The notes beneath the pieces were generated by a model. That model ran no database searches and was not told the DNA's origin. It saw only the letters and a program-made list of their open reading frames with translations. 64,000 nt of DNA. It comes from Antitrichia curtipendula. Its lineage: Eukaryota; Streptophyta; Bryopsida; Hypnales; Leucodontaceae. This document shows, in pieces, positions 27,199-53,505 of this stretch. Numbering within the stretch: position 1 is the stretch's first letter; every line of letters starts with the position of its first letter. The translations under genes and the position numbers were made by a program. The stretch covers positions 558,001 to 622,000 of the forward strand of contig OX579638.1 of NCBI GenBank assembly GCA_951230915.1. Reading direction: 5' to 3'.

Positions 27199-27212
27199 TT
27201 ACCCCCCCTTCT
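27199..27212 (-). promoter_or_regulatory. Polypurine tract
   Basis: On the minus strand an AAGGGGGGG run sits directly upstream of the 3' LTR, the position of the plus-strand primer of LTR retrotransposons. Confidence 0.75.
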
Positions 27213-29495: not shown

Positions 29496-29695
29496 NNNNN
29501 NNNNNNNNNNNNNNNNNNNNNNNNNNNNNNNNNNNNNNNNNNNNNNNNNNNNNNNNNNNNNNNNNNNNNNNNNNNNNNNNNNNNNNNNNNNNNNNNNNNN
29601 NNNNNNNNNNNNNNNNNNNNNNNNNNNNNNNNNNNNNNNNNNNNNNNNNNNNNNNNNNNNNNNNNNNNNNNNNNNNNNNNNNNNNNNNNNNNNNN
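29496..29695. other. Assembly gap of exactly 200 N
   Basis: A 200-base run of N removes the end of gag, the expected protease and most of RT. The round length suggests an arbitrary scaffold gap. About 1 kb of coding sequence is missing relative to a normal chromovirus, so the true gap is larger or the element is internally deleted. Confidence 0.95.
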
Positions 29696-30718
29696 GGGCT
29701 TTGAGGGATTCGTGGGGCAACGTGATCGAATATGACCTACTCCACCGCAACCCCAACAACGTCCTTGGCGTTGATATTCTTGCCGTTCCACCGCCGTTTT
29801 TGCCAAGGCTGTAGAAGGAGTACGCACCGCTCCAAGCTCCATCGGCACCGGCCCGGAGGTATTCGAGTTAGATTGAACCTTCCCCAGTGCATTTCGTGGC
29901 AAAGTTGTTGGGGAGCGGAAACTTGAAGTCTCAAAAGGTGAACGGCGGTTTTGACGCCGACCCCATAATCTCTCATCGATTCGGGATGACATTGCCATCC
30001 AATCTTGTAGCCGGCGTGGTTGAGTCTCCGCCGTCGCCACCGAATCCAAAATCTCATCCTTGAGTCCTCCACGAAAACGAGCTACCAAACTGGATTCGTT
30101 CCAATCGAGTAGCGCCGCGCATTCATTAAACATAGAAATATAATTCGCGACTGACCCAGTTAGTCGAAGCTTCCCAATGCGATCCTCCGCATTGCTCTGA
30201 CGGTCAATATCCCCATATACGGAAATCACGGACTCCCGAAAAGCTTGGTAATCGCCCAATAACTTGTGATCACGCTCCTCGTCCAAAGCTTGGAGAAGAG
30301 GCATAGCCCAATTTTGTGCCGCTCCAGTCATATACGAAAGCGCATAAGCTACCTTATCTGCATCAGAGCTATAAGTGCGCGGTTTACCTCGAAATACAAG
30401 ACGGAGTTGTGCAAACCACCGGTAAACTTCATTTCCCTTCTTTCCGGAAAATTTTTCCGGTTCCGCTACCTTCGATTCTTTGAGTTCCACATTGGATTCC
30501 GCACACCTCCCTCCTAACACCCCTCCGCTATTGGAGACGGGAGAGACCACCGATCGTGGTCCTTGCGCTGCTCGACTCGAAATCTCTTGTATCAATTGAG
30601 GAAGTGTGGCTTGGAACACACTTTGGATTTGTTGTTGGATGAAGGCCGCCCACTCCGACCCCATCCCATCCGGCATCAATTCTTCCCCCGGTTGGACCAC
30701 CGGTGGTACTTGATCCAT
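29696..30718 (-). CDS. Gag of the chromovirus (3' truncated by the gap)
   Basis: The ATG at 30718 is followed by about 340 uninterrupted codons to the gap. The N-terminus is MDQVPPVVQPGEELM. The capsid-like region has KFSGKKGNEVYRWFAQLRLVF, GAAQNWAMPLL and FRGGLKDEILD, typical of the retrotransposon Gag domain. Near the end PMELGAV precedes a CCHC zinc knuckle (CWGCGGVGHIRSRC), which binds genomic RNA during particle assembly. No stop or frameshift occurs in the visible part, unlike pol. Confidence 0.9.
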
Positions 30719-30851
30719 CGAAGGAGATTAGGGTTCCGAATTAAATAATCCTACAAAATCTCTCATGGTAACGGCCGTTGTCCAAAGCCATCAATGCACC
30801 TTCAACGTGGGAATCCGAATTAGAGCATGGACTTTGCATGACTTGACATTA

Positions 30852-32274: not shown

Positions 32275-32676
32275 ATTAGAATTTCTCAAAATTTTCGGAT
32301 AAGATAGGACATTTTAGATCGGAAAGTAGAAATTCCGGAATAACCAATTTAGAGAAATCTAAATCGATTACGGATGGTAAGGATCCGGGGTAGAACCGGA
32401 ACCGGAATCCGGAAAGCCTAGAGGCTAGGATCCGGCCTAGCCGAGTAGTGTACCGTGTGCACGGAATCCTAATCGCGTTCCCAGCACAGGAACGGGAAGG
32501 CGACGGGTTCGGGTATTTAAGGACCACTGTTACCCTAATCCTCATCATTTGTCTTGCTGACTTTCAGGAACGCATAGTTGAGAGAAAAAGTGGTGAGATA
32601 GAGATCGGATAGGGAGTGAACAGTGAGGTCGGTGCCGATTGCACCGGATTAGGTTGTGTTCTGTTGTCCACAGACA
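32275..32676 (+). promoter_or_regulatory. GC-rich island with TATA box upstream of a short ORF
   Basis: The composition changes abruptly, with repeated ATCCGG/CCGGAA words (about 32330-32440). A TATA-like TATTTAA lies at 32514-32520, about 160 bp before the ATG at 32677. The leader is purine-rich. The same ATCCGG-rich style is seen only at 52.2-55.2 kb. It may be the 5' end of an element related to that island. Confidence 0.5.
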
Positions 32677-32931
32677 ATGGCGGAAAGTTCAGATCCGAAA
32701 GCGGCGAAGTCGTCGGCGATTTTCCGGATGGTGTACCCTGTCATTCCAACCGATGTAATCCACCGCAAGGAGTTAGAAGAGGATCTGACGCGGGGGTGGA
32801 AGTACGCTAGACCCCATACACTTTTGGCAAAAGTACTATGTATTATATTCGCAAAAAGTACTAAAAGTGTACTAAATGTATCCTTCAGAGGAGAGATACG
32901 CGACATACGTCATCGGATTCTGATTGCGTGA
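32677..32931 (+). CDS. Short hypothetical ORF (84 aa), probably a truncated protein
   Basis: MAESSDPKAAKSSAIFRMVY and ELEEDLTRGWKY look like a true N-terminus with normal codon use up to about 32815. After that the sequence becomes AT-rich and the translation loses character, so coding probably breaks or meets an intron there. The family is not recognised. The break point is marked by a short stretch that matches 52171-52198 in inverted orientation. Confidence 0.4.
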   Translation: MAESSDPKAAKSSAIFRMVYPVIPTDVIHRKELEEDLTRGWKYARPHTLLAKVLCIIFAKSTKSVLNVSFRGEIRDIRHRILIA

Positions 32932-35900
32932 TTACAGCTGGTGGATGTAGATCGACCAATGGCTGCAAAGTCAGCTCATTAAAATCCAGATCGAGTGCAC
33001 AGATTTGGAGGGCGCCAGCTTGGTTGTCCCACGATTCCCAGCTTTGCTACTTGACACGTGGTGACTGTGGATGAATTCAGGCGAATGTTTTGAATTAAAG
33101 GTCAGTAATCGCGGGCCACATTCCCGCCCTCAAGTTTTTCATTGAATAATGAAGTTAATTCATCCAATATTAACATTGCAAACTAGTTTAGGAAGCAAAA
33201 CGTATGGAATTTTGACATTTGTATCCATTGTTTGAATGAACCTTGGATGAAGAACCATTTTTGATATATAATGATTACCTGGATTTTGATTTTTTTTAAC
33301 CAATTCATCTTTCTCATAGGAAAATGAATAAAGTACTTTAAAGATTAATTTTATTCTTCTATAAATCCTTGAAGGACTTATCAAATGGTCCTTAAATGGT
33401 CAAAGAACTTATCAAAGCTATACATTGCCTTCTAAATTGTATTCAAATAACAACTTTGTTATTTATTAGTTGAAACTATGAATGATACATCATTGCGGAA
33501 AAAATTTCAAATTGTTTCATTAATTGCAATTTATTTCTTTTAATTTTTGACATTTCTAAAAATTTCAAGATAGAATACAAATAAAACTTGTCAAATTTCA
33601 TTTTCTTTGTTTCAGAGACCTACCGAAAATGGATATTTTGAAAGTTACTATTGGAGTTGACTAAGCTACATTCACTTTTTTCATGCATGGACCTTGAAAG
33701 GTTTGGTGACTATACGCGTTCAAGTGACATAATGGCCACATTTTACTCATATTTATATAAATTATTTCATACTTAAGTGTCCAAACCCTATGAGTATGTG
33801 GGTGTCTATTTTGAATCCATATTTTGTTTCCTTGTTCATTAAAATGAAATTGAAAACCAACCACTAATTTTTTTTTTTTACTTTTTTCAACCAAAATAAT
33901 GATCTTTCTTCAGGAAAATGAATCAAGTGCTTCTTAGATTAGTTTGTTATTTTGTTAAAAACTAACCACATTGAATTGACATGGTACTGACCACATTTTC
34001 ATTGTGTATATGTAATTCAATTTATGAAAATCCAAATCCTTTGAATATATAGGGGTCCATTTTCATCCATATTTCTATTAAATGTAGATAACAATGGAAT
34101 TTAAAAGGGCTCAAGCAAATGTGTTCTCCATTTCTTTTTACCAGTTGATATTTTTTTAGAGAAATGAATCAGGTCTTCCTAGGTTCATTTTGTTCTTCTA
34201 TTCAAGATTAACTACGTTGAAATGACGTAGTAGCCACATTATATTTAAGAATATATATAGACATACTTCAGTTAAAAATTTCCTTTAATCGTATGAATAT
34301 GTGGGGATCCATTGTCAATTATAGTAATTAAAATATTATTTTAAAATGTTATTTTAAAATGCCAATTATGTGTGTGTGTGTGTATATAGATATATACATG
34401 TAGTTTAGTTCATAAAAGCCTAAATCCTATAATTATATAAGTGGTCTAATTTCAATCCCATTTTTTTTTCATCAAATGTTGGTTACAATGAAATTGAAAA
34501 GCAACCAAATGTGTTCTCTATTTTCTTGAATAGACTAAAGCTAATCTTAGTGCAATGCATTTAGTCTAACATTTATTCGGGTCAACCAAATTTTTTTATA
34601 TTTCTAAAGAATAGGGAAAAAAAAAAAGAGTTTCGTGGAAATTTATATTTTATGTTGTATATTGTATATCCAAATGTGTTAAAGATCAAGGTAATTATCC
34701 TCATATTGAAACCTTCACTTTGCATCTAAATATTGAAATAAAATTTGCCAAAATTGTACTTGGCTACAATATTGTTAGAACGTTTTCAATTTTGCTTTCC
34801 AAAAATGAATCCAAATACAATCTTCTTTTGTTTGTAAAGTGACTTGGACTTTGCTCCTTGTCATCATGTATAATAAAATATACAATCATCTACATACAAA
34901 ATTTCCAATCATCAAATGATGTATTGTTGAAAATATTTAAACAATGTAAAAGTCACTTCTATACAAACTGTGACTTCTACACTTCTCCAAACTTTAAAGC
35001 TTTCTTCAATGAAATTCTTTTAATTATAGTATAATTTTAGTTTTCTGTACGTAATTCTCTGTAGTTGACTCCAAAATTCTTCTAATTTTCATGGAAAAGA
35101 TATAGAATTAAGGTTGATTTCCAAAATTTCTATCAATGTATCTAGTCACATTTATCAATTTGGTAATACTTAACTCTATATAAAATTCAAAATTAAATGA
35201 ATTTCCTATCAAATATTTTTACCTAAAAAATACTCCATTTCCTCAATAAACTTAAACAAAATTGAATTGTATTAAAAAAATGCATTGAAAACTTTGATTA
35301 AATTATAAATAATCCAAGAAGGAGCTTAAAACTGTAAAAATTCAATTAATGTATCCAATTTGAAAACCAAAATGGAAAGAATAGACATTGAATACCCTAG
35401 AGGGTATTAAAAAAATTGCAATTTAAATAAGTAGGTGAAGATGTCCATCGAAGGGTTACTAAATCAAATGTGTTGTAAGAAGGATGTTTATTAAACTTAA
35501 AACATTATGTCAATGATTTACAACCTAAATCCTTGATTAAATAAAATCCTAAGTAAACATACTCTTAGTCTTTTAAGGCTTTGGCTATGATTACACTAAA
35601 CATATTACTTTTGTTTTAGGCAACTATGACATCGTAACATGTGCAGTGCTATAATCCAAGTATTGGGGTGTTATTTTGAAAATTACATGATTTGATGATT
35701 GTATTAAAAATATGGTCTAAGTTAAAACATCGAAACTTTGCACTTAACACAATTGATATCACTTCTAGGCCTGGTTTCAATTTAAAAGGCTCAAATTGAT
35801 TTTTCTATTAAAGTAGCCACTTGTAAGTTAACAAATTGATTGTTGTACATAATAAATTTTCAAAATAAACACAATTATCTCATTTATAGATTTTTAATTC

Positions 35901-36970
35901 AAAAATTGAACTTTTAATTTATAAAAATTGATATCACTTCTAGGCCTGGTTTCAATTTAAAAGGCTCAAATTGATTTTTCTATTAAAGTAGCCATACATA
36001 ATAAATTTTCAAAATAAACACAATTATCTCATTTATGGATTTTTAATTCAAAAATTGAACTTTTAATTTACAAATAAATGTAGGGAGCGGGGGAAGACAA
36101 TACAAATAAATGTGTACAGTTCGTTCAAATTCCCAATGAACTAGACAAAATTAAATTCCAATAAAAGGGGGGGGGGGCTTGAGGACCAAGTGGATGTCCC
36201 TCACACAACCACGTGTCCGAGTTCTTTCCGTTTGGTCCCCGGAGTTATGTGCTGTTGAAAGAAGAACCCTCTTATAGGAAGCGTTGAAGTGAGTAGCAAA
36301 CAATATGGGATAAATAGAAGGTCGCGTTTGTCTAACTACAACGTGGACTCAAAAACAGGTAACAATAGGAAAGAAATTCCTACTGGATTTTTGAAATAAT
36401 CGAATTGCACCATTTTGGATCTCTACCTACTTTGAAGTGATTTAAATTCTCTACATAATGGAAGGGTCTTTTCAGTTCCAAGTTTGAAATTATTCAATTG
36501 AAATGTAGAAGCTTGTTTTGTCATTAAAAAGGTAACAAAAATTGGTTTATTATGGAGAATGCCGATTGCAGTGACCATGTGAAATCTAAAAATTTGATAA
36601 TCAAAATTTTATGAGGCTATTTTAGGCTCTATTTTATAAAATTAATTTATGCAACTAGAATTTAATTTACTAACCTAGGTATATTTAATCATCAATCAAT
36701 AGTTGTTGAGAAATTAAACATTCATGTGAACCAAATAGTAAAACTTAAACATTTAAAAAAAAAATGTATTTTAGATAAACGACAAATGGTCTCTACGGTG
36801 TTCAATTTCTATTTTTACCATTTTAAAATGCACAAATTATTATGTTTGAAACCTATTGACATTGTTTATTAAGATATTTACATTCCCTAAATTCACTATA
36901 AGAAAATCTCATAACAATTAAGGAAAAAAAATTCTAAATACATAAGATGTACAACATTTTGACACTTTGT
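32932..36970. repeat. AT-rich gene-free region with diverged ~250-bp tandem repeats
   Basis: Between about 33290 and 34570 related blocks recur near 33792, 34043, 34299 and 34432 (GAATATRTGGGGRTCCATTTTCA-like, then ATGAAATTGAAAA). They are spaced about 250 bp, the last one shorter. A (TG)n run lies at about 34371-34384 and a G run at 36169-36177. No ORF is supported. Confidence 0.5.
35751..36075 (+). repeat. Tandem duplication, ~175-bp unit
   Basis: The block starting AATTGATATCACTTCTAGG at 35751 is repeated at 35926. The second copy is nearly identical but lacks about 30 bases (CTTGTAAGTTAAC... to TGTACAT). Confidence 0.85.
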
Positions 36971-36976
36971 CTACCT

Positions 36977-37780
36977 TAAGTGTTAGATTATCTCAATCTA
37001 ACACACAAACCATTTACCAATTCCAATTTTTTTTTGTGTGTTAGATTATCTCAATCTAACACATGAACATTTACCAATTCCAGTTTCTTTTACGTGTTAG
37101 ATTATATTAATCTAATACACAAACCACTTACAAATTCTATTTTTTTAATGTGTTACATCATTTCAATGTAACACATGAACTATTTACCAATTCCAATTTC
37201 TTTTACGTGTTAGACTATATTAATCTAACACACAAACCACTTACAAATTCCATTTTTTTTTGTGTGTTAGATTATCTCAATCTAACACACGAACCATTTA
37301 CCAATTCCAATTTTTTTTTACGTGTTAGATTATATCAATCTAATACATGAACCATTCACAAATTCCATTTTAAAAAAATGTTACAACATATCGATCTAAC
37401 ACACGAATCATTTACCAATTCCAATTTTTTTTTAAGTGTTAGATTATATCAATCTAACACACAGACCACTTACCAATTCCAATTTTTTTATGAGTTACAT
37501 CATATCAATGTAACACATGAACTATTTACCAATTCCAATTTTTTTTACGTCTTAGATTATATTAATCTAACACACAAACCACTTACAAATTCCATTTTTT
37601 TTTGTGTGTTACATCATATCAATCTAACAGACGAACCATTTACCAATTCCAATTTTTTTTACGTGTTAGATTATATCAATCTAACACATGAACCATTCAC
37701 AAATTCCATTTTTTAAAAATGTTACAACATATCAATCTAACACATGTGAACCATAATTTACCAATTCCAATTTTGTTAAT
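36977..37780 (+). repeat. 57-bp hairpin satellite, ~14 monomers
   Basis: Each monomer has TGTTAGATT, a 5-base loop and AATCTAACA (perfect 9-bp stem), then ACACRAACCATTTACCAATT and a T run. Variants are arranged in order: the monomer with GTTACATCAT...ATGTAAC at about 37150 recurs at about 37490, and the five between are matched by those that follow. That gives a ~340-bp higher-order unit of six monomers. Open frames here (37150-37350, 37378-37716) are translated repeat, not genes. Confidence 0.85.
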
Positions 37781-38260
37781 AATCAATGTACCAAAAGAGT
37801 GGATATTTCTTCAAATTTCTAATACTTAATCTTTAAATTCTAATAATTTCTTCAAATTTATTGTACTTAATGAAATTCTGATAAATTCTTCAAATTTCTA
37901 ATACTTCATCAAATTCTAGCACATGGAGTTTTTTTAAAAATAGTTTTGTAGAAATTTATATTATTCTAGTTGTACTCCTTATGTTCACTTGTGGTATAAA
38001 ATAAGTGATTCACATTCACATTTCAACCTTGGACATACAAACTCAAAATTTCCAACTTTTGCTATTGAACTACAATAGCAATATCATATTATGAAAGTAT
38101 TAAGTATGCACAACTACTAAAATCACATCAATATCAGGGTATATATTATGAGAACTACTTCTTGTGAAGTATAGTGTTACTTATCAATTAATGAACTACC
38201 CGTTTATGAAATGCATTGAATTTCCATCAAGTCCAACATCATTACCAATCAACTCCAGTG
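37781..38260. other. AT-rich gene-free stretch before the RING/SET locus
   Basis: No ORF is supported. The sequence changes sharply to higher GC at about 38262. Confidence 0.4.
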
Positions 38261-38688
38261 ATGGGTGATCACCGGTTGCCTTTTTGGGCGGAACGGTTCT
38301 GTGACCGGTGACAGCTGGTCGACCACCTCGGGCCACTTCCGATTGCCGGTAGTCGTCTCGCACCTTTACAAGCTAGCTTCACACTTACTCCAGTTTCCAG
38401 TTCACGCCTCGCTTGCGCTTGAGATTCAGCTGCGATTTGCATTTTGGTTCTGGCCGCATTGGCCGTGTAAGGGAAAGTTCAGTGAGACAATCTCTTCAGC
38501 GCAATGGGGTACGTCAGTGTCACGGGATTGAGTTTAGTGTCCCGGGATTTCCCTAAGAGCCAGGAGATTGCGATGAGTGTTGAGGGGATTCTGTTCAGCG
38601 TCTAGGGGATTTCGTTGAGTACATAGTTGATTTTCACGCACGATTGGATTCTGATTTTGGATTTAGGGTCTGGGTTCGAATGCGGCGC

Positions 38689-38695
38689 TATAAAC
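38689..38695 (+). promoter_or_regulatory. TATA-like box of the RING-like gene
   Basis: TATAAAC lies 130 bp before the ATG at 38825, within a GC-richer promoter region (38262-38820). The spacing fits a plant core promoter with a ~100-base leader. Confidence 0.4.
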
Positions 38696-38824
38696 TTCGA
38701 GCTTTAGCAATGTAGGTAGTTCATTAGGAGTGGTGCCTGGGCTTTGAAGGGAAAGTTCTCAGCTGTGTGGGAGTTCCACTTCCGCTTCACTGTTGCTAAG
38801 AGTAGTTGTTTCAGTTTGAGAGTG

Positions 38825-41800
38825 ATGGAGACTTCTAGTGGAATGCATTCGGGTAAGGGGAAGCTTGCGAAGGGGAAGGATTCTGTGGGTAGGGGGAAGC
38901 TCAGTGCCTCGAAGTCCCGGGAGAGTGGGCGGAAGAGCAGGCCACTTGCTACTCAAAGCAGTGGCGGACACAAGACTAGTGCTGCCCTCCCAAGCGCCGA
39001 GGAGGATGAGCACAGCAACGAAGAAGGAGATGGTGGCGACAAAGAACGAGATGGTGGCGACGAAGAAAAGCAGAGCACACACCTGAGCGACATGGACGGC
39101 AAGCGGAAGAGACCCGCGATGAAATTGAAGAAGGGGAAGGTTTGCAAGACAGCTGAGGACGTGGAAACCGAGATCTCCAACTTGAAGCCACCACCACGAA
39201 AGCTGACTCGGGAAGATTTTGCCAAGGAGTACAACCTTTGCAATGAATCTGCTCAGAATCCTCATCGCTACAGGAAGGGTTCACTGCCAACGAAGCTGGT
39301 GAGGAAATACTTTGGGGATCCGGTGGGTGAAGGTGGGCGAAATGGGTTTTCTTGGCAACAATGTGAACAAACCGATTTGAAAGCAAGGATTCAAGAGCTG
39401 CACCCAATTTTGTATCAACATGGCGCTGGTGAGGTACCTGGCTTGCTCAAGGTGCATTTCGCTGAGGGAGTGGCAATGGAGTACGAGAAGGGAGCTAAGG
39501 AGGTGAATTGGTGTTTGTTTGGGGAGGAAACAAACAAGAGACAACGAAATCGATACGAGAAAGACTTGAAGAAGCTCCAAGCATTCAAGAATACCTTACA
39601 GGATTCTTCGAAGTCTGTTCAAATGCGAGGGCTGCGAGGGCGGCAGTGGCGATCGATAAAAATCGAGCCAGGCCAGAAAGGCGTCAGGTTGGAGCCAGAC
39701 AGGAAAGGGGTTAAGTTGGAAGGAGGTCGGGAGAGTGGGAAAACTGACCTTGTGGAAAAAGTGCCAGTTTCATCACAATCAAAGCTTGGGGAGACGGGTG
39801 GGGAGTCTGGGATGTCTGCAGATTGCGAGGGTGGTGACTTTCAACGAGGAGGAGGAACGCTGTCCAAGGCAGGTTCGGCAGAGCGACTGGTGGAGGTTGA
39901 GTCACTGATGAGTGTCGTTCACATGGAAGGGGAAGTGTTAAAGATTGAACTCAAAGAAACTGAATCTAATCTTGAGAAGTGCCAGTGGAAGAGGAGGGAG
40001 AAAGAGTGCCTTGTAGGCACTTTCTAAGGTCAGATGGAGGTGAAGTCCAAGTTAATTGAGGAGATGAAGGGCACTGGTGCAGATGTAGCCCGTGAATTGA
40101 TCAAATTAGAGATGGTCCAAGAGCAATTGGCATTTGAAGAGCAAAACGTAGCTGAAGCCAACATCCAGCTTCAGCAAGCAGAGAGTGCCCTGGCCATCGT
40201 GCAACATAAGATTGTCTGCCACCGATTGGAGTTTGATGCCTTACTAGCTCAGTCATGGTCATTGAAGAGAGGCCGGGTTGGAATTTCCTTTTTACCAAGG
40301 CCAATGGTGTATGCTTCTACTGAAGAAAACACCTCTGAATTGACCAGCTTCGGCAGTGAGAGTACGTTTATTGGGGTCACAATTTGCTGCCTATGCTCCT
40401 TCCCATTCCCTCATAGTGACATTGTGATTTCTTCATGTCGACACATGTACCACCCTTTTTGTGCGTCTGTTCTCTTCAGCAATAGCCAGACATGCGTGGC
40501 TATGGGGTGTAAATCGTTGGCACATCCTGAATGGCATCGTAGCTTCGGCTGGGGGGAGCCGAGTCCGGACCTTGTACAACGGGCTCTGATGCTTGGACTT
40601 GCTGAGGAGAGGAAGAAAATTCTTCAGGACCGATTAGATGCAGCCAAAGCTAAATGTCCACATGCTGGTAAGTTCATTTGTCTTTTTTGCAATTATCAAT
40701 CTCCATGCAATGCATACCTTTCCTCCTTTGTAATTCAAATTTCACTAAATCTTGAAAGCATAATTCAGGTCTGTGGTAGGGTTCAGGGTTTAAGGTAATA
40801 CTCTTTCGAGTGACTGCACTTGTATTACTATACCCTTTAGTAATGATTGAATGCAATGTTTGAATAGTAGGGTTATAATGTTCAAGTAATAGGAACCCGG
40901 AGAACTCTGTAGTACATTTAAAGCAGTAATGCTTATGAAAGGTTTAGGCTTCATTTCAGGTTGAAAGTGGTTTCCAATGGAATGCATTATTCTGCTATAG
41001 CAATTAAAATAATCAGTTTGTATCATTTGTACTCGTTGCTTGGAATACTTTTTTTTATATTTTATTTTCAAGACTTCTACATCGAACTCTGCTTTTGAAA
41101 TGATGTCTTCTTCGGAATTGATTTGGTGTAGTATTTCTTAATTTTTTCTAGCTAAACCGGACTTGATGGCCTAATAGCATTAAAATGTCCTTCTCGTGCT
41201 GTTAATTCAGTGGGACTATTCGACTGAAATGTACTTATGGGTCTACTCTTTGGTAGAATTGGTTGGTATCAAACATATCTGGATATTGAAAGTTCAAATT
41301 TCTCGTGTTTCCGAGTCTTTCATTGTATTACATGTATTATATGTAACGAGGATGAAAGTGGTCTACAGTGAAATTGGTTTTGATGTACTATTTCAGTTTC
41401 CTTTTTTCTACTAGAAACATACCTAGTGGCCTATTTCGTATTAGAATGTACTTAGAGCATTATGAGTTTCGTATTCACAGAGTACTAGGATTTCGATACT
41501 TTATGAATGTGTAGTACTGTATTGAGTTTGTGGCCTGCTTCGTATTAGAATGTACTTAGAGCATTATGAGTTTTGTATTCTCAGAGTACTAGGATTTCGA
41601 TACTTTAAGAATGTGTAATACTGTATTGAGTTTGTGGCCTGGTTCATACTAGTATGTACTTCGAGTATTATTAGTTTTGTATTCACAGAGTACTAGGATT
41701 TTGATACTTTCTGATTGTGTAGTACTGCATTGAGTTTGTGACCTGGTTCGTATTAGAAAGTACTTCGAGTATTATTAGTTTTGTATTCACAGAGTACTAG

Positions 41801-43987
41801 GATTTTGATACTTTCTGAACGTGTAGTACTGCATTCAGTTTGTGTTAAACATACTTATTAGATTAACTATTTCAAATAATTAATTTGTATCAAACATACA
41901 TGAGTATTAAAAGTCAAAATTATCTTCTTATTCTTTAGTCTTTCAAAGTACCTTTTCTGATGTTGATACTTCTCACACAAATTTTCATTTGTCTGTTTGT
42001 ACAAATTATGTTAGTTAAGAAAAATAGGTTTTGAAAGTGGTAGTTGCAGTATATAATTAGAATCACAATGTACCGCATGTACTGTACAGTGGCTTCAGTA
42101 TTATTGACTGAAATGTATTTGGGATAATATTTTAATTTTCTAATTTTTTTATAAACAAGCTGAGTGGCCTGGTTTGTATTAGAATCTACATGAAGTATCA
42201 TAACTTACCCATGATGGAGATGTACTACACCAGTCTATTTTGAATGGATGGAGTTCTTTTGAATTTGTGTTTAAAGTAATGCATTATTGTTTACATGTAC
42301 AGTCATGTTCTTTTCTTTTGAGGTAGAGGTTAGGGCTCTGTGGTTCTACTTCTTCAATAAATCAAAAGATTTGTAGTTCAGCTGAAGGCAATTTGTTGTT
42401 CATTGTGTAGCTTCAGGTCAGGGGTTTGCCCGTCCCGCGAACTCTCCAGCGAATTTCACAGAGGGAGCAACTAGCCAAGCTATTTGCTCACCAAAGGCTA
42501 CTGATTGGGGACGTCCTACAATGTCTACAATAGAAGAAGACATTCATGCACAACAAGCCATTGATCCGATTGAGAAGAAGAGAAGCCGAGGTGAGGTGGA
42601 CAGTCTGGCTGTGAAAGCAAAATTGAGAAAGAAGAAAAAAATCACGAAGGTCTTCAACGAGAATGACATGGATGAAGAGCCTGAATTCTGTTCAGAAACG
42701 GAGTCAAGTGAAGATGGGCTCGCAAGAAAGGTGCTGAACCTGCCCTCCAGCTCTGGTACCACTATTTCCACTGATGGTGACGATTTGAGAATTGAAGGCA
42801 ATGCGGGTGAAATGGATATAGATGATGGGAATGACTTCTTGAAATCACCTCTCCGTAGTTCTTTGGACACAATCCTTGTCACTCCCCCTAAAACTCAGTT
42901 GTCGAGGCTAGTACATGGACCACGGGATGACGAGACATCCCAAGGAGAGGCTCAGGAGGCAAATCCACTTGGTGAAATTAGGGGTGCAAGCCAGAAGGAG
43001 AACGAGGCAGTACCTGGAGATGCTTGGGAGGGGATGGATGCAGACCATGCAGATGTTGATGACGGGGAGCCTGCAGAGTCACAGGCCGAGATCAAGGGAG
43101 CGGTGCCTGCGGTGCCTGAGGCAACCATGGCATCGAATCACAGAGGCTCAAATTCTGAGCCCAATGATTCTGTGACTGCAGGTGTAGGGAAGGAGATGGG
43201 AGTTCCTGAAGTAGTTCTTGGGGAGGGGAAGTGCAACGCTGAGGGAGATGTTAGAGATACGACTGGTTTTGATGAGGGCAATGTTAAAAATGGGAGGAAT
43301 TCTGATGAGGGAGATGTTGGGGTGGAGATGGCTGTTGATGAGGGAGATGATGGGAAGGGTAATGGTTTTGATGAAGGAAATGTTGGGGAGGAGATGGCTG
43401 AGGATGAGGGAGATGTTGGGGAGGGTAATGGTTCTAATGAGGGAAAAGTAGGGGAGCGGATGGCTTCCAACGAGGGAGACTCCAGTGAAGGAAAGGGTGA
43501 AGGTGGCAAGGATGGTGAAATGGGGAAGAGTAGTGACGAGGGACTTGGGGAGGTTATTGTTCAAGAGGAGGAGCTTGCAGGATCAAAGGGAAAAAAGGAG
43601 AAGCTCATGGAAGTGCAGCCACAGGCTGGATGTGATGAATCCAAGCAGAAGGTTGAGGAAATGGCCTTGAAGACAGTTGCAGTGAAGAAATCAAAAAAGA
43701 AGAAAAGGGACCAGAAAGAGGGGAAGAAGAATCGCAAGGAGGTGGACCATGCGGAAGCCCAAACATCCCCAGAGAACTTGAATAGTTCAGAGCACAGTTT
43801 TTTTACTGAGTTGAACAAGATAGCAGATGGGGGGGGAGATGGCGGTGGTGAGGAAGTAGCTCCCATCACAGATCCCACCCCAATCCTTTCACCTCCAGGC
43901 AGGAGGAATACCAGGTCTCAGCAGGGGAACTTGACATTGTCTACACAGGTAGACAAAGCTTCGTCAAAGAAGCGTCAACGCTCCTAG
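38825..43987 (+). CDS. Nuclear coiled-coil / RING-like / acidic-repeat protein (N-terminal part of possible SET fusion)
   Basis: Exon 1 is 38825-40667 and exon 2 starts at 42411; the intron is GTAAGT...GTGTAG, phase 1. The ATG at 38825 opens METSSGMHSGKGKLAKG; upstream in-frame codons lack ATG. The protein has a basic Ser/Gly-rich start, a conserved-looking block (LPTKLVRKYFGDP, FGEETNKRQRNRYEKDLKKL), a coiled coil, then a RING-like C-x2-C...C-x-H-x2-H-x2-C...C-x4-C finger (ICCLCSFPFPHSD, SCRHMYHPFCASV) followed by HPEWHRSFGWGEPS. Exon 2 is acidic with tandem DEGDVGEEMA-type repeats (43250-43500) and a basic nuclear-type stretch (KKSKKKKRDQKEGKKNRK). A TAA at 40025-40027 (codon 401) interrupts the coiled coil in frame. 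Exon 2 can end at a stop at 43985 or splice at 43948 into the SET exons. It is probably nuclear; the function is not known. Confidence 0.7.
40668..42410 (+). other. Intron 1 of the RING-like gene (1,743 bp)
   Basis: The donor is GCTG|GTAAGT and the acceptor TGTGTAG|CTTCAGG. Joining restores one open frame (codon GCT, then SGQGFARPANSP). The intron is AT-rich with frequent GTAC and AGTACT words and contains the 104-bp tandem array. Confidence 0.75.
41426..41841 (+). repeat. Four exact-period 104-bp tandem repeats in the intron
   Basis: Copies start at 41426, 41530, 41634 and 41738, and each begins GTGGCCT or GTGACCT. All contain ACAGAGTACTAGGATTT-like and TGTAGTACTG-like words. The period is 104 with no indels; substitutions are scattered, and copies 3 and 4 are closest to each other. 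Degenerate relatives flank the array near 41167 and 42170. Confidence 0.9.
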
Positions 43988-44183
43988 TTTTTATTTTATT
44001 TTTTTGGATATGCAGTTGTGGCCAGAATTTGAATAAGCTGATTTCAGGTATACAAGCAAAGCATTGTAAATTGCCTTCACAGTGGAGGTTATTGAAACAG
44101 AGACTATTTATTTATTGACAAAACTTCTTGTTTCAGTAGTTTTTATGTACTAATGTGGGTTGTTCTTAATGTGTTTCATATAG
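43949..44183 (+). other. Candidate intron joining the RING-like ORF to the SET exons
   Basis: The donor is ACACAG|GTAGAC and the acceptor CATATAG|GCAAGC, phase 0 on both sides, 235 bp, T-rich in its 3' half. If not spliced, the upstream frame stops at 43985. No other exon candidate for the SET protein is visible in the 195 bp between that stop and the acceptor. Confidence 0.5.
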
Positions 44184-45148
44184 GCAAGCTTCTTATACAA
44201 TACTGAAGACTTGTTTCACGGCTTGGAGGCGCGTCCAATCCCCGTAGCTCCACATGATTCACCAATGCGTTCTTTCAAGTATATGACTACTAGTGTGGTC
44301 CACAAGAATGCCCAAGTGAATACTTCTATTGTTGGATTAGGAATTGGTGAATTCTGTGCTTGTCGCAGAGATGATTGCTTGACTGCCGTGGTTCCTTGTC
44401 AATGTACAAAGGGAACTGGTGGTGAGTTTGCATACAACCCTGGTGGGTTGTTGAAGGACCATTTTCTGCAAAATGGTGGTCATATGTGTCGGACTTTCAT
44501 TAGGGAGTGTAATTTTAAATGTGGATGTCATAGTAAATGTGGCAATAGTGTGGTTCAGCGGGGGATGAAGTACTCGGTAGAAGTTTACCATACAGCGCAC
44601 ATGGGATGGGGGATTCGAGCTGCTGAATCTATCCCCAAAGGTGCATATGTATTTGAGATGATTGGGGAGATATTGACTAATGCAGAGATGTTGATTAGGA
44701 ACCTGGTAGTTGATGGTGGTCCATCATACGCTTTGCAACTTGATGCTGATTGGTCCACAGAGAGAAAATCGAATGACAACACAGCGTTGTGTTTGGATGC
44801 TACTCACTTTGGAAATGTCGCCAGATTTCTCAATCACAGGTTTGACATCTACTATGACTTGTTTTAAAGTTCAATGTTTTTGTTTCAGCACTTGGGTTTT
44901 TTAATTGGTAGTGCACAATCTTGTGCAGATGTGGAGATGCGAACCTGATTGACATCCCTGTGAAGATTGAGGGTTCTGGTAAGAGCTTCTACCATGTTGC
45001 GTTTTTCACAAAACGTCAGATTAAAGCCCAAGAGGGGTTAACATGGGATTATGGTATTGATTTCAGCAATTGTGACCCAGAATTGCCTTCTTTTGCTTGT
45101 AAATGTGGAAGTATCATGTGTAGAGATAAAATTTCAAAAGGTATTTGA
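44184..45148 (+). CDS. SUVR1/2/4-type histone H3K9 methyltransferase SET module
   Basis: Two exons, 44184-44839 and 44929-45148, are joined by an 89-bp phase-2 intron that restores NHRCGDAN. The pre-SET region is cysteine-rich (GEFCACRRDDCL, VVPCQCTKGTGGEFAY, ECNFKCGCHSKCGNSVVQRG). SET motifs are present: GWGIRAAESIPKGAYVFE, GEILTNAEM, NHRCGDAN (AdoMet-binding NHxCxxN) and LTWDYGIDF. The post-SET is CKCGSIMC. Arabidopsis SUVR proteins show the same order and similar wording (CGNxVVQRG, EALCLDAT, ELTWDY). The family methylates H3K9 and acts in transposon silencing. All recognisable catalytic motifs are intact. There is no start codon in front, so the N-terminus must come from upstream exons, most likely the RING-like ORF. 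The stop is TGA at 45146. Confidence 0.88.
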
Positions 45149-46501
45149 CAACATCAGAAGCGAAGTGGAAGCCAGCTCATGACGGGCAAGATTATATTAG
45201 TGATTTGTATTTCAAAATCGGAATGTGAACCACTAATATAGTTTTGTGTGAAATGCGCTCGCTCTTAGTTGGCTTCTAATGTTTTCACTCACCTTTTATA
45301 GACTTTATAACTTCACTATTTTATAAGCAAAAGTGTTGAGGTTGTTGGACTCAGTAGTTAGGTGTATGGAGGTGGAACATTCTGTATTTTTAGTACTTAT
45401 AGAATACATTTCCTTTTAGGAATTGGTAAACTTTATATACTAAATACTTTCAATTAACTATTCAAACTTGAAAACATTTTCACTCTAATGCACTTTTGAC
45501 AAAGTGGTGCTCAGGTTCTTTGGTGTTCCTGTCAATGCCTACAGATGAAAGGAATATTGGTTTTCGGCAAGGTGTGGCACATAAGGAACTGTATTTTTTT
45601 ATTACTTTTTACTATGTCTACTTTGGCATGCATTATTATGTTTGTAATTTTTCTACATGCTAATATGTGTATTTGCTATTCTAACTTCGTAGTCCAGCTT
45701 TCTTCATAAAAGTAATTGTTTGTATTCAATCTCTGATTTCCATTTGGAATTATATGTACTTGTTATGCAAGAATGCTTAGTATTGTGCTTGTAATTTGCC
45801 TTTGCTGGAGTTTGTAAGGTTTTTATATGCACATAATGAATCCTAAGTTTTGAGTCTTCAATAATGGTTCTAGATGTACATTATTTATGGATTTGTATGA
45901 AATGTATAGTACTTGCTTGATACGATTTTTGTATGTTAACCTATTTTAAATAATATTAGTCTACATACCTTCAATTCCAATGTAAACCACCTGCAAGTAA
46001 ATCCACATGCACCATGCTGTGGAATACCTTGTTCATTTGTAAGTAATGAGAGAAAGTGAAAGGACTCCAAAGAATTTCAAAAGAGTATTCACCAAAGTAT
46101 GCTAAGTCATCTATGCTTGTTTAACATAATTTCTATATTATCCCCAATATCCTACTCAGTTTAGGAAAAAATACATAAGTAGCACATTCTTAAAAATATC
46201 ATAATGGAAACTACAGAGAGTGGTATATATAAGCAAATGGTAAGTCTCATATACTTTTTTTATTATGCCAAACATAACTAACGCTTTGCAAGCAGCAATC
46301 CTGCATTACGTGTACTTGTAGTATTAAAAAATACTGAAATCCTGTACTGAATAAAGTACTACTAGTATCCAAACAACTGAAATCATTGTGCTTATAGAAC
46401 TTATAGTACCTAAAATACTAAAGTCATAGTACAATTAAGGGAGTTTTAGTATCCAAAAATACTATAAAGAACACAGAAATCTAAAAGAGAAAACTATAGT
46501 C
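45149..46501. other. Intergenic region between convergent genes
   Basis: 3' flanks of the SET gene (plus) and the transposase-like gene (minus). AT-rich and unusually dense in GTAC, AGTACT and TACTTAG words. No ORF is supported. Confidence 0.5.
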
Positions 46502-48396
46502 CTACTCAGCATTGAATGCCCACCATTCTCGTAATGCATCTTCACACATTCTTTGGGATTCAGCAGACATCTTGTACACAAGGGTGTCCTTCACCCTATG
46601 TGAGGCAAGAATCATAGGGAACTTACAAGCCCGAACAAGATGTGCATCCACTGCCTTGTCACAAAACACATATGTCTTGTCTCCGCGTCCAAACTTTTTG
46701 TAGTACTTGCCCCTGATAATAGCATCCCCGGCATTAAAGGCCCCACCCAAGGACAAGTAAGTGATTCTTGCAAAACAAACTTTGTCCTCTGACATTGTAG
46801 AACGTAAAACTGCACACCATCTTCATTGTCTTCCTCTGCTGGGATCATGAAGTTGTCTCCAACTTCAACCATGTCACCAATCTGTATAGATACTCCATTG
46901 TGTAGCCAATTCTCTACTTCGTCCACCTCCTCAACTTGTTCTGCAGTTGTAGTAATGCTTACAGGTACTAGTCTTTGCACCTGCCATGGTTGCACATGTG
47001 AGGACCTGTCACAATTATCCCAGTCACCATCAACACATGGAATGCAAAAATAAGATAATGCACGAGTTTTGAGAAGAGTAGGTTCCATCATGGAAAATCC
47101 CATAATAGAGTATAGACTCTTTGAACCAGGAATAGTGTTGCACTTCAAGCTGTTGTTGTTGTGATTAACTTCCTTCTCTCCAATGTACCAAAACACTCTA
47201 GAAAGAGAAGATGTCTTGGATTGAGCATAGGAACTAACAACACGCTCTGTGTACTTTTCCTCCAAGAATTGCACCACTTGAGTAGCATTTTGCAGTGGAC
47301 GTAAGGGATTTTGAATTTGTTCAGCCACCAACGCCCTCTTCACAACTGCCCCTGCACCATCCCACTCCCCTTTGCCATGAGCTGATTCAAAAAAATTCCA
47401 ACGCATCATACACCCCCCAGTGAGCATGGGGTACCGGGCTACAAAGTACATTGCCGTAGCACACTTGAACTGTGCACTGCAACCGTCGCTGAAGATCCAA
47501 TGCTCCTCAGGAGAGAACCCTGAATCCACCAACCAATCCCAATGCAAAAGCAAACAATGTTGGACAAATGCTGAATCATGGTCCTTATCATCAGAAATAT
47601 AAAAGTGAGTTTGCTTCAAGATCTCATCTCCTTCCCTCCACATGGTGATGTGAACCAATATAGTGATAGAAGTACTAAAGTAGTACAAACTTTGAACTTC
47701 GTTTTGAATTGCAAAAGAATAGTTCTCTGCATAGTCAATGTGTGAAACGACAACTCCCTCTGGAACATTGGCCATCATTAGCTGGCATTGCTCATCCTTC
47801 CACCTTGCTCTGAAATTGTGTGTTATGAAAGTTGTCACAGTCTTCTCCATGTATGACAAAAAAACATGTGCAGTAGTCTCCTTGAACACTTCCTTCAAGC
47901 GTTTCTTTGGCTTGCCTGTGTTGGCATCCACCCCTACCTGGTAGTACTCAAAGCACTTCCACTTCAAGGTAAAGGAAGATGAACTACACAACTCCAATTC
48001 ACAGAAGGTTAGTAGATGAAATCCACAGTGAGGACAATCTCCCATGAGGCATTCTAGCCTATGCCAGAGGTCAAACTCCCCCTTTGGACAAATACATGCT
48101 TCCCACATCAAAGTAATTCGCTTGAAAACATGTTCATGTGCATGGCAGCCTCCCTCTCCATTGCCTAGACAAAGCACACATTCACAAGCACAATTTATGC
48201 TTGCATGCAACCCCCGGAGTACGTCCCTAAGGTTACTCAAGGCAACCTTCATAAAATCCATCTCGACATGGTAAATACAACAACAAGTATTTCTCTCCTT
48301 GAGTTTTCTCACCCACCATGGTTTCAACCTTTCAAAAGCTCTCTGGCGCACAGTACATTCAGGATGTACTTCTTTGAAGCGCAAGAAGAAATAAGT
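46502..48396 (-). CDS. Transposase-like protein, exon 2 (one frameshift)
   Basis: The acceptor is TTTGGCAG|ACTTATTTC at 48397/48396. It encodes FKEVHPECTVRQRAFERLKP, the cysteine-rich NTCCCIYHVEMDFMK, then HIDYAENYSFAIQNE, IFSDGCSAQFKCATAMYFVA and WNFFESAHGKGEWDGAGAVV. The two aspartates and the following acidic cluster are placed like a DDE/D RNase H-fold catalytic triad (inference). A Cys pair (CIPCVDGDWDNC) follows. After LQ at 46795 the frame shifts by one base into MSEDKVCFARITYLSLGG, which continues to a stop at 46502, so a single-base loss (or sequencing error) splits an otherwise intact ORF. From memory, related proteins are multicopy in non-seed plants and some animals. The transposon superfamily is not assigned. 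Confidence 0.75.
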
Positions 48397-49993
48397 CTGC
48401 CAAAAAAAATTGCACCACCAAGAAGTGAACACTGTGAGACACTTTGTAAAACTTTTTGGAACTAATAATACTTATGGAGTACTACAAGTACCTTGTTCAA
48501 CTAGACATTTAGAATTTTTAACTTCACTCTGTATGACCTCAAATTTACAATAGTCCACAGCTTCTTGAAGTAGACGCTTAGATTTTTTAGGTCTATTTAA
48601 AACGACCAAAAACCTACCACAGTAGAAAGAGCAATGAAAACGTTAATTAATTTTAACGCTGTTCTTGAACTCTACAATCGGTACTCAAAAACAGTTAGCC
48701 TCGTTTAATTAGACACCTTGTAGTAGTTTTCATACCAAACATACTTGTTAAAATAAACTAATTCAATCTTATTTTCACCAAACAATATAATGAGTATCAT
48801 CTTCAACAATCCGTTTTGAATTTTTAACTATACTAAGTACGCCCTCAATACTAATGTAGAACAAACTGTATTAAAAAAATTTCATAAAAACTACAATGGT
48901 TCTTAAACTCCGGAAGTGGTACTGGAAAAAGGTATTTCTGTACTATTAGATATCCGACTAGCATTTTAATTGTGTTCAAAATACTTTAATTGTATTGAAC
49001 ACAAGAAAAACATACTTTGCGTACGTCATAGATACTTATTTGTAAAGTACAAGAAGTGGAGACAAGAATACCCGAATACCTTGGAGTACTTTTTGAGCAA
49101 ATAAAACATTTTCAAGGTCAGTGATTGTACCTTATTTTCACTATAGAATACTATGACTACTTTGTTCATTTAGATGTGTACATTTATGAAAACCACTAAG
49201 TATATTCTATGAAGTTTTATAATACAGTACATACTTTAAACATCGAATTAGTACTGAAGTTGTTATTTAACTTGGCAAGTGGTTTTTACTTCAGAGTAGT
49301 TAGAGTACAAGTAGTTGACAAAGTTCTATTGGCATTGTACTAGACATATTTTCATGGTATTGACTCAACTAGAAAGGTTCTTTGCATATAGAATAGAGCA
49401 TGTAGAAGTACAAAACAAATTGTGGGAACAAAGAGGAGTTTGGATGGGGATACTTTTATAAAATCTGTAGTATGTTTTGAGCTTACCATACTTATTTAAG
49501 TATACTGTTTGTTCTAAATTCAACCATAGGTATTATGAATGTTTTATTTCTTCAGATGTACCAGGTTTCAAAGTGTATAAAGTACTACCTTACTATTAAC
49601 ACGGTACAGTAAGTATTATGAACGTTGTTATAGTCCTGTAGTTCATATTGAACTTCTTGATGTTTATTTAAGAAAGTATAAGTCTGCATAAGACTGGTAT
49701 TCGCATTTTACCATGAATGTTCTCATATTTTAGACCGTAGAAAGAAGGTACTATTTAATTTGAAAAGAGTATAAAATATACAATGTAGAAATCGACTTAA
49801 CATGAAGTACACAGTGAAGTTAGAGACAATTGTGTTCGGTACTTTTGAGTTTTTCATTTTGGTTACAAACATAGATGTTACATTTGAAGGTCATTTCTTT
49901 CTTATATGTGTAACCTAGTTTACGCTCAAAAACAAATAAGTACAGAAAGCAGAAGGAGAGATAGAAGAAGGATACTTGAAGGATGAAACTCAC
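48397..49993 (-). other. Intron of the transposase-like gene (1,597 bp)
   Basis: On the minus strand: GACTCAG|GTGAGT donor and TTTGGCAG acceptor, phase 0. Joining gives HYLCETQ then TYFFLRFKEV, a sensible continuation. The interior is AT-rich with dense GTAC and AGTACT words. Confidence 0.7.
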
Positions 49994-50797
49994 CTGAGTC
50001 TCACAAAGGTAATGCGTAGGATGAGGCTCAACCCATTGCACACGTCCCACTCTATGCCTTATAACGTCCTTTTGGTTTGGTGACACCTTTGTTTGACCAG
50101 TCCACCACGCATCGACACATTGTTTGATGTAATCGGATAAACCTGCTCTCTTGAGTCTCTGTAGACGTAGCTTTGGCACTATATCTTGTGGATCAAGTGC
50201 ATAAACCCTTCTTGTCAAAGCAAGGCTTATGCTATCGGTTGTTGTATCCAGAACCCATGACAAACTTCTCACCCCACCAGTCCCCAAACTCACAGCCGCA
50301 TCTAGTAGAGCACTCTTCCTAGCTAAAAACTCGTTAGAGTTGGCCACCTTCACACATTGCAGTTCATGCTTAAAATTTCCAACGAAGGAATGAATCACCT
50401 TTGCTTCTTGTGGCCTGGGATAGTACACAGGTAACAAAGGTGAAACAATGTCATGGCGCAGAACCTTCTCCATGACATCCTTCTTACTAAATGGATCGGG
50501 ACAACTTCTCAATTCCTCAACTATATACTGTGCTAGACGTAGGGATCTCCGATGCAAATCCCTCACAGGTAAGTAATCATCCAATTCGCGATCTGGATCT
50601 GGAGGCACAGTCGCTAAACTTTGGGACGACTCCAATCTCTCTCTGTCACGTGCTCTTTGACGAGCCTTCCTCTCTCTTGCATTCTCTGTAACTGCAGAGA
50701 GAACCTCTTCATGCATACGAGCTTCGGCAACCCTAGTAGCTGGACCGGGACGACTAATGCCATGCTTGGTACGTTTTCTCTTAGCAGCGTTGCCCAT
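49994..50797 (-). CDS. Transposase-like protein, exon 1
   Basis: The ATG at 50797 is followed by 268 uninterrupted codons to the donor. The N-terminus is basic (MGNAAKRKRTKHGISRPGP), with a charged helix (ENARERKARQRARDRERLES) compatible with nuclear targeting and DNA binding. DDYLPVRDLHRRSLRLAQYI and an all-helical region follow. The exon ends QWVEPHPTHYLCETQ, which runs directly into exon 2. No stop or frameshift. Confidence 0.75.
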
Positions 50798-52170
50798 TAG
50801 ACTGAACCTAGCAAGGAAAAGGTTCGGGAAAACAAATGCAGTCGTTAGTCATCTACGCGGAATCAAAGTACATAGTTGAGGAGTTGTGAGGCTCACAAGA
50901 TTCAGGGATAATACATGGGAAAAAAAGCATTTACAAGTTGTTTGAAAAATACGGGAAGAAACTCACCAAATGAGGATAACTCATTTGAAGCACTGTCATA
51001 ACACCATGGATTCACAGCTACCCGTACCAGGTGAAGTCCTCACGTTAGAGAGAGAAGGTGTGTACTCAAAACTAGTAGTTGGATAACTATCACCGAAATC
51101 AGGAGATACTGGACTCGTAAAAAGTCCACGTCGAGGCTACTCTTCTGCGGTGTTGCAGCGGCCTAAGTAAAATTCACTCTTGCCTTGCTTGGACACAGGA
51201 GTTTCTGATACGTATCCTGAATCACTAGTATACTTAGAGAAAACAGAGCCCACCTCAGCTGTTGAAACAGAGAATATATCAAAGGACACCTCACGTGTAG
51301 GGAAGTAAGAGGTGATCAATTTCTGGACAAGAACAGTGCGTTGGCTGGATTTTGACATCATGCAGAAGCGGATTTGTGAATGACAGGTGCAATCTAGCAA
51401 ACCATACTGAACTAGCAAGCAAGGAAGAAGAGCGCGAAAACGAAGCAACGTTCAAAACAATGGCATGCAGAAAGAATCGCAGAGGGAGACGGAAGTTCGT
51501 GGAGACGACGGCGCAGTCAGCGGCAAATCAAGCCTCATCCAATCAGCGCTCCCTAGAAAAGTGGTTCCCGAATTTCATGGCGGCGGCAGTAATGAGGGAA
51601 GATTCTGGTGAAGTACTTTGAGAACACCAAACATACTTTTGTACTAAAACAAGGAAGGGAGGGGCAAAAAATTATTATGCGCAGAAAACACTAATTGGAA
51701 AATTCGACGAGTAGCCATCCTTGAAGACGTCGAATGCATCTCAAAACCCTAAACCGATTTAGAAACCCGTACTTTCAAAAAAGTTACAGCTTTCCAAAAA
51801 ATCAGCTCTTTTTTTGTACTTCATCGCCAAATATGAGATGAAATTAGGAATGTAAAAGAAGAATCGGGTAAAGCCGACTTTGATGTTTCATGCGATGAAA
51901 AAGAAGCAAAAAAAGAGTTCTGTACAGCCTCCAAACAAGTACTTTAACGTGATTTGTAGTACTGTGACATTTTGGTAGTCATATACAAAAGTACTTTTTT
52001 TACAGCATGGATTAAGTTTTTCAATGAATTTAACTATACTCATAGCTACATAACATCAGTAGGCTATAGGAAATGAACACAAATGTCAAAAAAAACAAGT
52101 TACAGTTTGAGTAATGTTAAGTACAAAATCATGTTTACTACCAATTTTGCATTGTGACCTCAAAAGTACA
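50798..52170. other. 5' flank of the transposase-like gene; no confident gene
   Basis: Probable promoter and 5' UTR on the minus strand. A plus-strand frame (51352-51621) with KNRRGRRKFVETTAQSAANQ and SLEKWFPNFMAAAV, and a minus frame (51448-51137), are open but unrecognised. AGTACTTT words are dense near 51610-52000. Confidence 0.4.
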
Positions 52171-52178
52171 AGGGTCTA

Positions 52179-53505
52179 GTGTACTTCCACCCGCGGATAG
52201 GATGCATAGGATTACTGAACAGACCGTGGAATATCAAGAGTGACAAACTGATTGAGGAGTTGGTTGTAGGAGTTCCCAATCAGTACGAGTTGACTGTGAG
52301 AGGTCGACCCGCGGCCTGGAGTGATGAAGTCTGGACGGAAGTATACTCATTCGGGAAAATCGGTTACGGATTAGCCGGCCGGAATAATAAATTCTGTTAC
52401 GGAAAGTTTAGAGGTCTAGTCAATCCGAAAGACGGATTCGCTGTTACGGAGTGCGCGGACGAGAGGCATAAACGACTCTTGGAGTTTTTGATTCCGATCA
52501 TGTATCCGGAAAAGCCTACCCGGGTCACCGTCACGGTGGCCAACACCATTTTCGGAGCATTAGAGGGAAAGAGTGGTGCATTGGGGGAAGGTCATCGGGG
52601 GAGTCGTTTCCAAACTAGCGGAGCATGTGACGAAGAATAAGTACAGTCCGATTAGCCCCTATCTGTTCCATCTTTACCATCAGAAGGAGATCCTGACGGT
52701 GGCGGAAGCGGTCACGTATGATACCGGGTGCGAGATCCTTAAGTACGGTCTCACAGGAGAGATGGAGCCGGATCATCCGGATTCGGAAGAAGACGATCCG
52801 TCGGAGAAGAAGGACGAGACCGCGGAACGGAAGGATAAAAGACGGAAGTCAACCGACCCGGGCTCGCGGGGGAAGGTGGTTTCACCGGATCGAGGAGAAC
52901 TGAGCTTGAATCTGATGAGCGGAAGTAGCGGATCCATGTTCTTCGACGTGGGCAGGGAATGGATGAAGGAGGCTCGGCATATGTACGACAACTTGGCAGA
53001 ATATGTCGCCAAGATTTCCGAGGAGTTGAAGGTGAACTCGGAGGAGATCTTGGAAGAAATTTGCCGACGACCGAATCCGAAAGCATTGCGAGAGAAGGAC
53101 GAGCAGATCCGGACCTTGGAGAAGGCCCGGGATAACTTTCAGTCACGGGCGAATTGGGCAGATGCAGAGTGCTCCAGTGCACGGCAGAGAGAGAAGGAAG
53201 CACTCCAGGTGGTCCGAAATCTCAACGCTCTGATCTCTCAGCCTGCGGATACCATAACCAAGGCTTCTCTGTACGATGCCCAAGTAGTGAGTGGGAGTCA
53301 TCTAACCGGATCAAAGATGCTGATGATCCTCGTAGATTTTACAGCCCGGATTAAGAAGACGTTGAAGGAGATGCGCCAACTGGTGGGACGGATCGATCCA
53401 GAACGCGCCATGGATTTCTCGGAGTTTTTGGAAATTCCCACTAATTTGTACTTGCAGACTCCAATCCGGAAACCATGGGGATTCCAACTCAGATGTAGTC
53501 TGTAG
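52179..53505 (+). pseudogene. Disrupted ORF with coiled coil, GC-rich island
   Basis: There is no ATG; the frame opens in YFHPRIGCIGLLNRPWNIKS, so the 5' end is missing or spliced. A globular-looking domain follows (ELTVRGRPAAWSDEVWTEVY, YGKFRGLVNPKDGFAVTECA) up to about 52565, where one base of shift leads into VVHWGKVIGGVVSKLAEHV. Then come an acidic linker (DHPDSEEDDPSEKKDE), SGSMFFDVGREWMKEARHMY, a coiled coil (REKDEQIRTLEKARDNF) and an end at TPIRKPWGFQLRCSL. The family is not recognised; a Gag-like or element-borne protein is possible. ATCCGG-rich codon use sets it apart from its AT-rich neighbours and links it to 32.3-32.8 kb. Confidence 0.5.

Follow-up and report, generated by a model that had tools for sequence, protein, structure and literature searches.

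A terminal inverted repeat transposon of Antitrichia curtipendula with a predicted SUVR-like SET methyltransferase and a RING-like partner

We analysed a window of 64,000 nucleotides of Antitrichia curtipendula (contig OX579638.1, positions 558,001 to 622,000 of the forward strand), which is part of the contig called C6 here, in a genome of 400 Mb. A sequence-only reading had singled out the region at 38825-45148 of this window as a possible single gene fusing a RING-like, acidic-repeat protein to a histone H3 lysine 9 (H3K9) methyltransferase SET domain. Judged from its sequence, this region is one gene block of a complete 19,399-bp terminal inverted repeat (TIR, class II) DNA transposon (32794-52192). 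This conclusion rests on the inverted ends, the GCGG target duplication, the open reading frame (ORF) restored when the flanks are joined, and the matching sister and E copies described below. Our best explanation, to which we give a probability of about 0.6, is that the region is the accessory block of a two-gene transposon, with a transposase and a RING-acidic/SET unit that would act by the mechanism proposed below. The parts of this explanation read from the DNA are the ends, the duplication, the dispersal, the linkage, the low substitution ratios, the complete SET motifs and the decay of the window copy.

The transposon and its copies

The terminal word of the element occurs exactly twice in the window, inverted, at 32794 and 52192 (0.05 occurrences expected). 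The left terminal inverted repeat (GGGTGGAAGTACGCTAGACC..., 32794-32826) lies on the plus strand, the right one (GGGTGGAAGTACACTAGACC..., 52161-52192) on the minus strand, and the target site duplication GCGG flanks them at 32790-32793 and 52193-52196. When the flanks are joined at GCGG, one open frame of 194 codons runs across the junction. Four dispersed copies on three contigs (E3 to E6) reach 96.9-98.7% identity in the pieces that align, over ~16.5 kb. They measure 16,450, 16,615, 16,621 and 16,927 bp, end in inverted repeats and carry the target duplications AAGT, TTAG, AACA and AACC, so that all five copies read at both ends (window, E3-E6) show the TIR and a 4-bp duplication. A sister copy starts at the same left-end base as the window element and is ~97-98% identical in the gene parts. 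It contains a 3.4-kb insertion near window position 40243-40250, and its match ends at 45055, inside the last SET exon.

The copies also differ in smaller features. A tandem array within the element (36976-37774, 57-bp unit, ~14 copies) matches the sister copy only in overlapping, shifted pieces, and its length therefore probably differs between the two. Between the SET exon and the stop of the acidic ORF, copies E4, E5 and E6 (L004, L005, L006) have in common an insert of ~275 nt whose ends are inverted (GATCGGGGTGGATTGACCCCC...) and which E3 lacks. By its sequence, this insert looks like a small non-autonomous element.

The gene convergent to the reported region encodes a DDE/D transposase with an RNase H fold. 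Its main exon, with the DDE/D domain, lies on the minus strand at 46511-48408, and its frame is shifted near 46726-46747 in the window relative to copy E6. The first exon was taken from an ORF at 49820-50848 on the same strand, which is common with the E copies at 49974-50798; it would be joined to the main exon. Neither the window ORF nor seven relatives matched a Pfam transposase family at E 0.1, and a missing profile match is no proof of absence. A profile search of the PDB with the transposase alignment gave no matches, and one with the RING alignment gave three, all at chance level. Among the relatives of the transposase, the named ones come from a moss, Ceratodon purpureus (38%), and a fern, Adiantum nelumboides. 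Elements of the Sola superfamily have a 4-bp target duplication, GRG-type termini and a Sola transposase. The duplication length and the GGG start of our element fit this description, in a comparison limited to these two end features.

Gene structure and decay of the window copy

The reported region is encoded on the plus strand. Exon 1 (38825-40667) contains a conserved N-terminal domain (~39155-39580), a coiled coil and a RING-H2-like finger (40385-40510, C-x2-C-x13-C-x-H-x2-H-x2-C-x10-C-x4-C). Exon 2 (42411-43987) is acidic and contains 33/66-nt repeats; its tail is basic. It runs to its own stop, or to 43948 if it is spliced to the SET exons. The first SET exon (44184-44839) encodes the Pre-SET and most of the SET domain, the second (44929-45148) the end of SET and the post-SET cysteines. 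The coordinates and arithmetic of the sequence-only reading were correct: its four exons (38825-40667, 42411-43948, 44184-44839 and 44929-45148) total 4,257 nt, a multiple of three, the donor CAG/GTAGAC and the acceptor ATAG/GCA are in place with matching phases, and the 5' end of the SET exon has no start codon.

That reading had missed a second stop in the joined frame, a TAA at 40025-40027 in exon 1. Ten of ten other copies checked (the sister copy and nine further ones) have a sense codon there, which makes the TAA a private lesion of the window copy. The window copy as read cannot therefore make the joined protein, and on the evidence of its sequence it is a decayed copy of the element.

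Linkage across the genome

The search with the SET exon gave 163 matches in the genome, of which 94 loci entered the linkage counts. For the RING-like exon we scored 150 of 874 candidate matches, and 144 of these 150 entered the SET linkage count. Looking up to 12 kb upstream on the strand of SET, we found a RING-like match at 76 of the 94 SET loci. When positions were placed at random in 200 trials, with the sizes of three contigs guessed, there were on average 0.3 and at most 2 such links, so the association is no accident of the window. The order of RING-like exon, acidic exon and SET exons described by the sequence-only reading is thus real and recurs within the genome.

We scored 84 of 467 candidate transposase loci and searched for a convergent SET within 15 kb. 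It was present in all 28 loci with a transposase identity of at least 72% and in 16 of the 17 at 46-49%, i.e., in 44 of the 45 loci of the two closest classes, and in none of the 39 loci at 41-44%. From these class counts, SET is a feature of certain branches within a larger family of transposases. A RING-like match was found near 1 of the 39 loci of the SET-less class, a count that comes from 65 of the 150 RING rows and is not used as evidence; no RING motif was present in 24 kb of one locus of this class. One SET-less relative (L036-L038, C3:47306001-47330000) combines an intact-looking transposase ORF of 690 codons with a convergent ORF that has many charged residues. Both lie between 1.1-kb inverted repeats that are 98.5% alike elsewhere in the locus. 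Among the SET loci of 44-53% identity (with L034 and L035), 31 of 59 have at least two RING-like matches within 30 kb upstream; this family may therefore carry two RING genes.

The copies are unevenly distributed. Contig C5, which makes up 9.3% of the genome, holds 28 of the 94 SET copies entered (p ~2e-8, for copies that are not independent). Nine of the 45 SET-bearing transposase loci are on C5, and 1 of the 39 of the SET-less class (Fisher p 0.017, with the same dependence between copies). This excess might reflect targeting to, or survival in, silent chromatin, and C5 itself might be a sex chromosome or one rich in repeats.

The SET methyltransferase and the RING-like finger

Pfam profiles for Pre-SET (PF05033, 2.3e-12) and SET (PF00856, 2.9e-9) match the third exon (44184-44839) above their cut-offs. 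The joined SET exons align end to end with EHMT1, from Pre-SET through post-SET (E 5.2e-36), and the NHRC motif, the WDYG motif and the post-SET cysteines are all present. This predicted, intact catalytic layout points to an H3K9-type enzyme of the SUV39/SUVR kind. The closest named relatives are plant SUVRs, and the Pre-SET/SET/post-SET layout is SUVR-like. At E 0.1, none of the three upstream ORFs gave a match to the WIYLD domain (PF10440). In a tree of SET exons, the window copy falls together with the E and F2 copies among unnamed environmental proteins, separate from the plant SUVRs (96/93). The F3 copies are placed with the plants, at the end of a long branch flagged as unsafe by the program itself. 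Given this placement of F3, the tree does not show a single origin of SET. Two sequences considered as host SUVR genes (L039 and L040) were rejected, as they look like SUVH genes.

The finger of the window copy gave sub-threshold matches to Pfam RING families (E 0.005 and 0.028). Its eight ordered Cys/His ligands are invariant in seven of seven aligned copies, with a last pair of C-x4-C, not C-x2-C. The RING-like finger of the sequence-only reading is thus upheld by its ligands and falls short of the Pfam cut-offs, which is why we call it RING-like.

The coding parts look to be under purifying selection where SET and RING are concerned. In the comparison of the window with E6, SET has a ratio of nonsynonymous to synonymous substitution rates (Ka/Ks) of 0.23, the RING ORF one of 0.10 and the N-terminal domain one of 0.105. 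The two transposase exons give 0.07 and 0.17, and the acidic parts, where they can be aligned, 0.25-0.38. Between families, the ratio of SET is 0.19-0.25. All these ratios are rough, with Ks near saturation in several comparisons. For some parts, the window and F2 copies gave no usable Ks.

Proposed mechanism

Under our best explanation, the second transcription unit of the element would encode a RING-H2-like, coiled-coil and acidic protein, with a SUVR-like H3K9-type SET methyltransferase directly downstream. The SET exons would be expressed from the RING-acidic transcription unit, most likely by alternative splicing, which would yield two forms, a short RING-acidic one and a longer one with SET. 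The RING-like part would handle ubiquitin while SET writes H3K9 methylation, and the element would thereby set the chromatin state of its own copies or insertion sites. A more specific version of this proposal starts from a lineage of land-plant transposons whose transposase is outside Pfam. This lineage would have gained a SUVR-type SET and linked it, through alternative splicing, to a RING-like protein of its own, giving a mobile, ubiquitin-coupled H3K9 writer that sets chromatin at copies or insertion sites. We consider this version tentative and somewhat doubtful.

A link with ubiquitin has precedents in H3K9 methylation. One passage of a published review reports that SUVR4 binds ubiquitin through WIYLD, which leads to further H3K9 methylation in vitro, and another passage of the same source gives the effect of ubiquitin on SUVR4 in the reverse direction (PMC7218100). 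Clr4 is described as stimulated more than 250-fold by ubiquitylated H3K14 (PMC8443253). By analogy, a RING-like protein beside a SET enzyme would fit ubiquitin-linked H3K9 chemistry.

The exon structure offers some arguments for joining the two parts. The window and E copies keep the in-phase donor and acceptor, and CTAAT and pyrimidines precede the acceptor. All four families read have an in-frame stop close to the SET acceptor: in F2 it precedes the acceptor by 12 nt, and in the window, E and F3 copies it coincides with it. No ATG precedes the SET core in the E copies read. The SET exons therefore need an upstream exon. An in-phase GT means little by itself, since 32 of the 74 GTs of exon 2 are in phase 0. 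The proposed donor belongs to the 2 phase-0 GTs of this exon (6 counting all phases) that reach a score of 1.63 or more on a rough matrix of plant donor sites.

Several results weigh against this explanation, most of them concerning the joined protein. On the same rough matrix the donor is weak (1.6), compared with 6.9 for the donor of exon 1 and 2.7 for that of the SET intron, and copy E5 has lost the G before it. The acidic ORF remains conserved past the donor and stops at the same place (43987) in the window and E copies: in this tail (43949-43987, 12 codons and the stop) 8 of 12 residues are alike, with a Ka/Ks of 0.21. Beyond the stop, the window and E copies diverge with indels. The best 120 of the 824 database matches of the joined protein are plant SUVR-type proteins with 39-46% identity, and no RING-SET fusion is visible among them. 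Two candidates for transcript evidence (P0019 and P0021) were rejected, as both contain the SET intron read through and look like genomic ORFs. The finger lies below every Pfam RING cut-off (best score 18.4 bits versus 27.3), and its structure model, built from a single sequence, was useless (predicted local distance difference test, pLDDT, 38). The rough Ka/Ks ratios add to these points, as do the 39 of 84 scored transposase loci, all of the more distant class, that have no convergent SET, which is thus not required by every relative. The single fused gene of the sequence-only reading survives in its exon order and phases, but the TAA stops it in the window copy and the matches listed show no such fusion. 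Judged from the sequence, a single RING-acidic-SET protein is possible; the RING-acidic form is the most likely product, perhaps with a longer form that includes SET by alternative splicing.

Alternative explanations

The same conserved tail and stop, the diverged sequence that follows, the weak donor and the lack of a fused protein among the best matches would also be expected if the RING-acidic protein and SET were two separate transposon proteins, possibly cooperating, with SET expressed either from a transcript of its own or through a different upstream exon. The acidic ORF ends in a basic tail in the F2 and F3 copies too (F3 by eye). However, only ~200 nt separate the acidic stop from the SET exon in the window, and with no start codon before the SET core in the E copies, an independent SET gene would have to fit its promoter and a coding first exon into this little room or inside the acidic exon. 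We find this quite conceivable, though short of even odds. The block might instead be an anti-silencing or decoy device, whose product competes with host SUVR/SUVH proteins or ubiquitylates away silencing factors and writes no H3K9 methylation on the element. Anti-silencing proteins are known from transposons such as Vandal and the TET/JBP elements of fungi (PMC12730594), and a RING-like finger would suit a ligase, but the catalytic SET layout is kept and evolves between families at ratios that would be expected of an active enzyme. We consider a decoy unlikely.

Two further explanations find little room in the linkage data. SET could be passive cargo, a functionless piece of a captured host gene, which would agree with its absence beside all 39 loci of the more distant transposase class. 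Its presence in all but one of the 45 loci of the closer classes, and the low Ka/Ks between families that differ by 46-30% in protein sequence, make this very improbable. The exon order and phases would also suit a host gene of the ordinary kind in which RING and SET form a new architecture, the view taken by the sequence-only reading. Yet inverted repeats and a target duplication enclose the region, the copies are many, dispersed and linked to a transposase, and the frame contains a stop. The element ends and the RING-SET-transposase linkage rule out a host gene, to which we attach a next to negligible probability.

Neighbouring features

The element interrupts another ORF (~32653-32793 and 52197-52640), the one of 194 codons with the flanks joined, whose right-hand part matched no Pfam family. 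A stretch 73% alike to window positions 52421-52561 recurs in the 3.4-kb insertion of the sister copy, and for this reason the interrupted ORF may belong to another repeat. Minus-strand ORFs at 27179-30727 read like gag and pol of a Gypsy-type long terminal repeat element and include a run of 200 N bases (29496-29695).

Relation to known systems and significance

Transposons that carry SET genes are already known, and the element described here is a plant variant of the SUVR type. HarbingerS and MuDR transposons with a SET histone methyltransferase gene are reported from the oomycete Phytophthora (Kojima and Jurka, Repbase Reports 2014, cited in PMC12730594). Compared by description only, they share with our element the DNA transposon bearing such a gene, whereas ours has a plant host, a SUVR-like SET, an upstream RING-like part and a transposase without a Pfam match above cut-off. 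Plant SUVR4-type proteins have the same Pre-SET, SET and post-SET layout, but here no WIYLD was found in the window ORFs, a RING-like and acidic part lies upstream, and the gene is borne by a transposon. In fission yeast, Clr4 and the Cul4 ligase complex CLRC couple an H3K9 methyltransferase to a ubiquitin ligase; the likeness is one of hypothetical function, and CLRC is a host cullin complex. The Vandal (MuDR) elements of plants and the TET/JBP-bearing elements of fungi are DNA transposons with an accessory epigenetic factor as well, yet these are described as countering DNA methylation or silencing, while the element here carries a predicted histone methyltransferase (PMC12730594). The literature searched turned up no plant transposon that combines SET with RING, nor one in which a RING-like partner accompanies a SUVR-type SET and the transposase lies outside Pfam.

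Copies of such transposons can inflate the counts of SET genes in genomes like this one, with its 163 SET matches. Silencing marks are normally placed by hosts on transposons. Here, an element keeps an H3K9-type methyltransferase of its own, apparently under selection, which raises the question of whether it silences itself, silences its rivals, or guides its insertion into safe chromatin.
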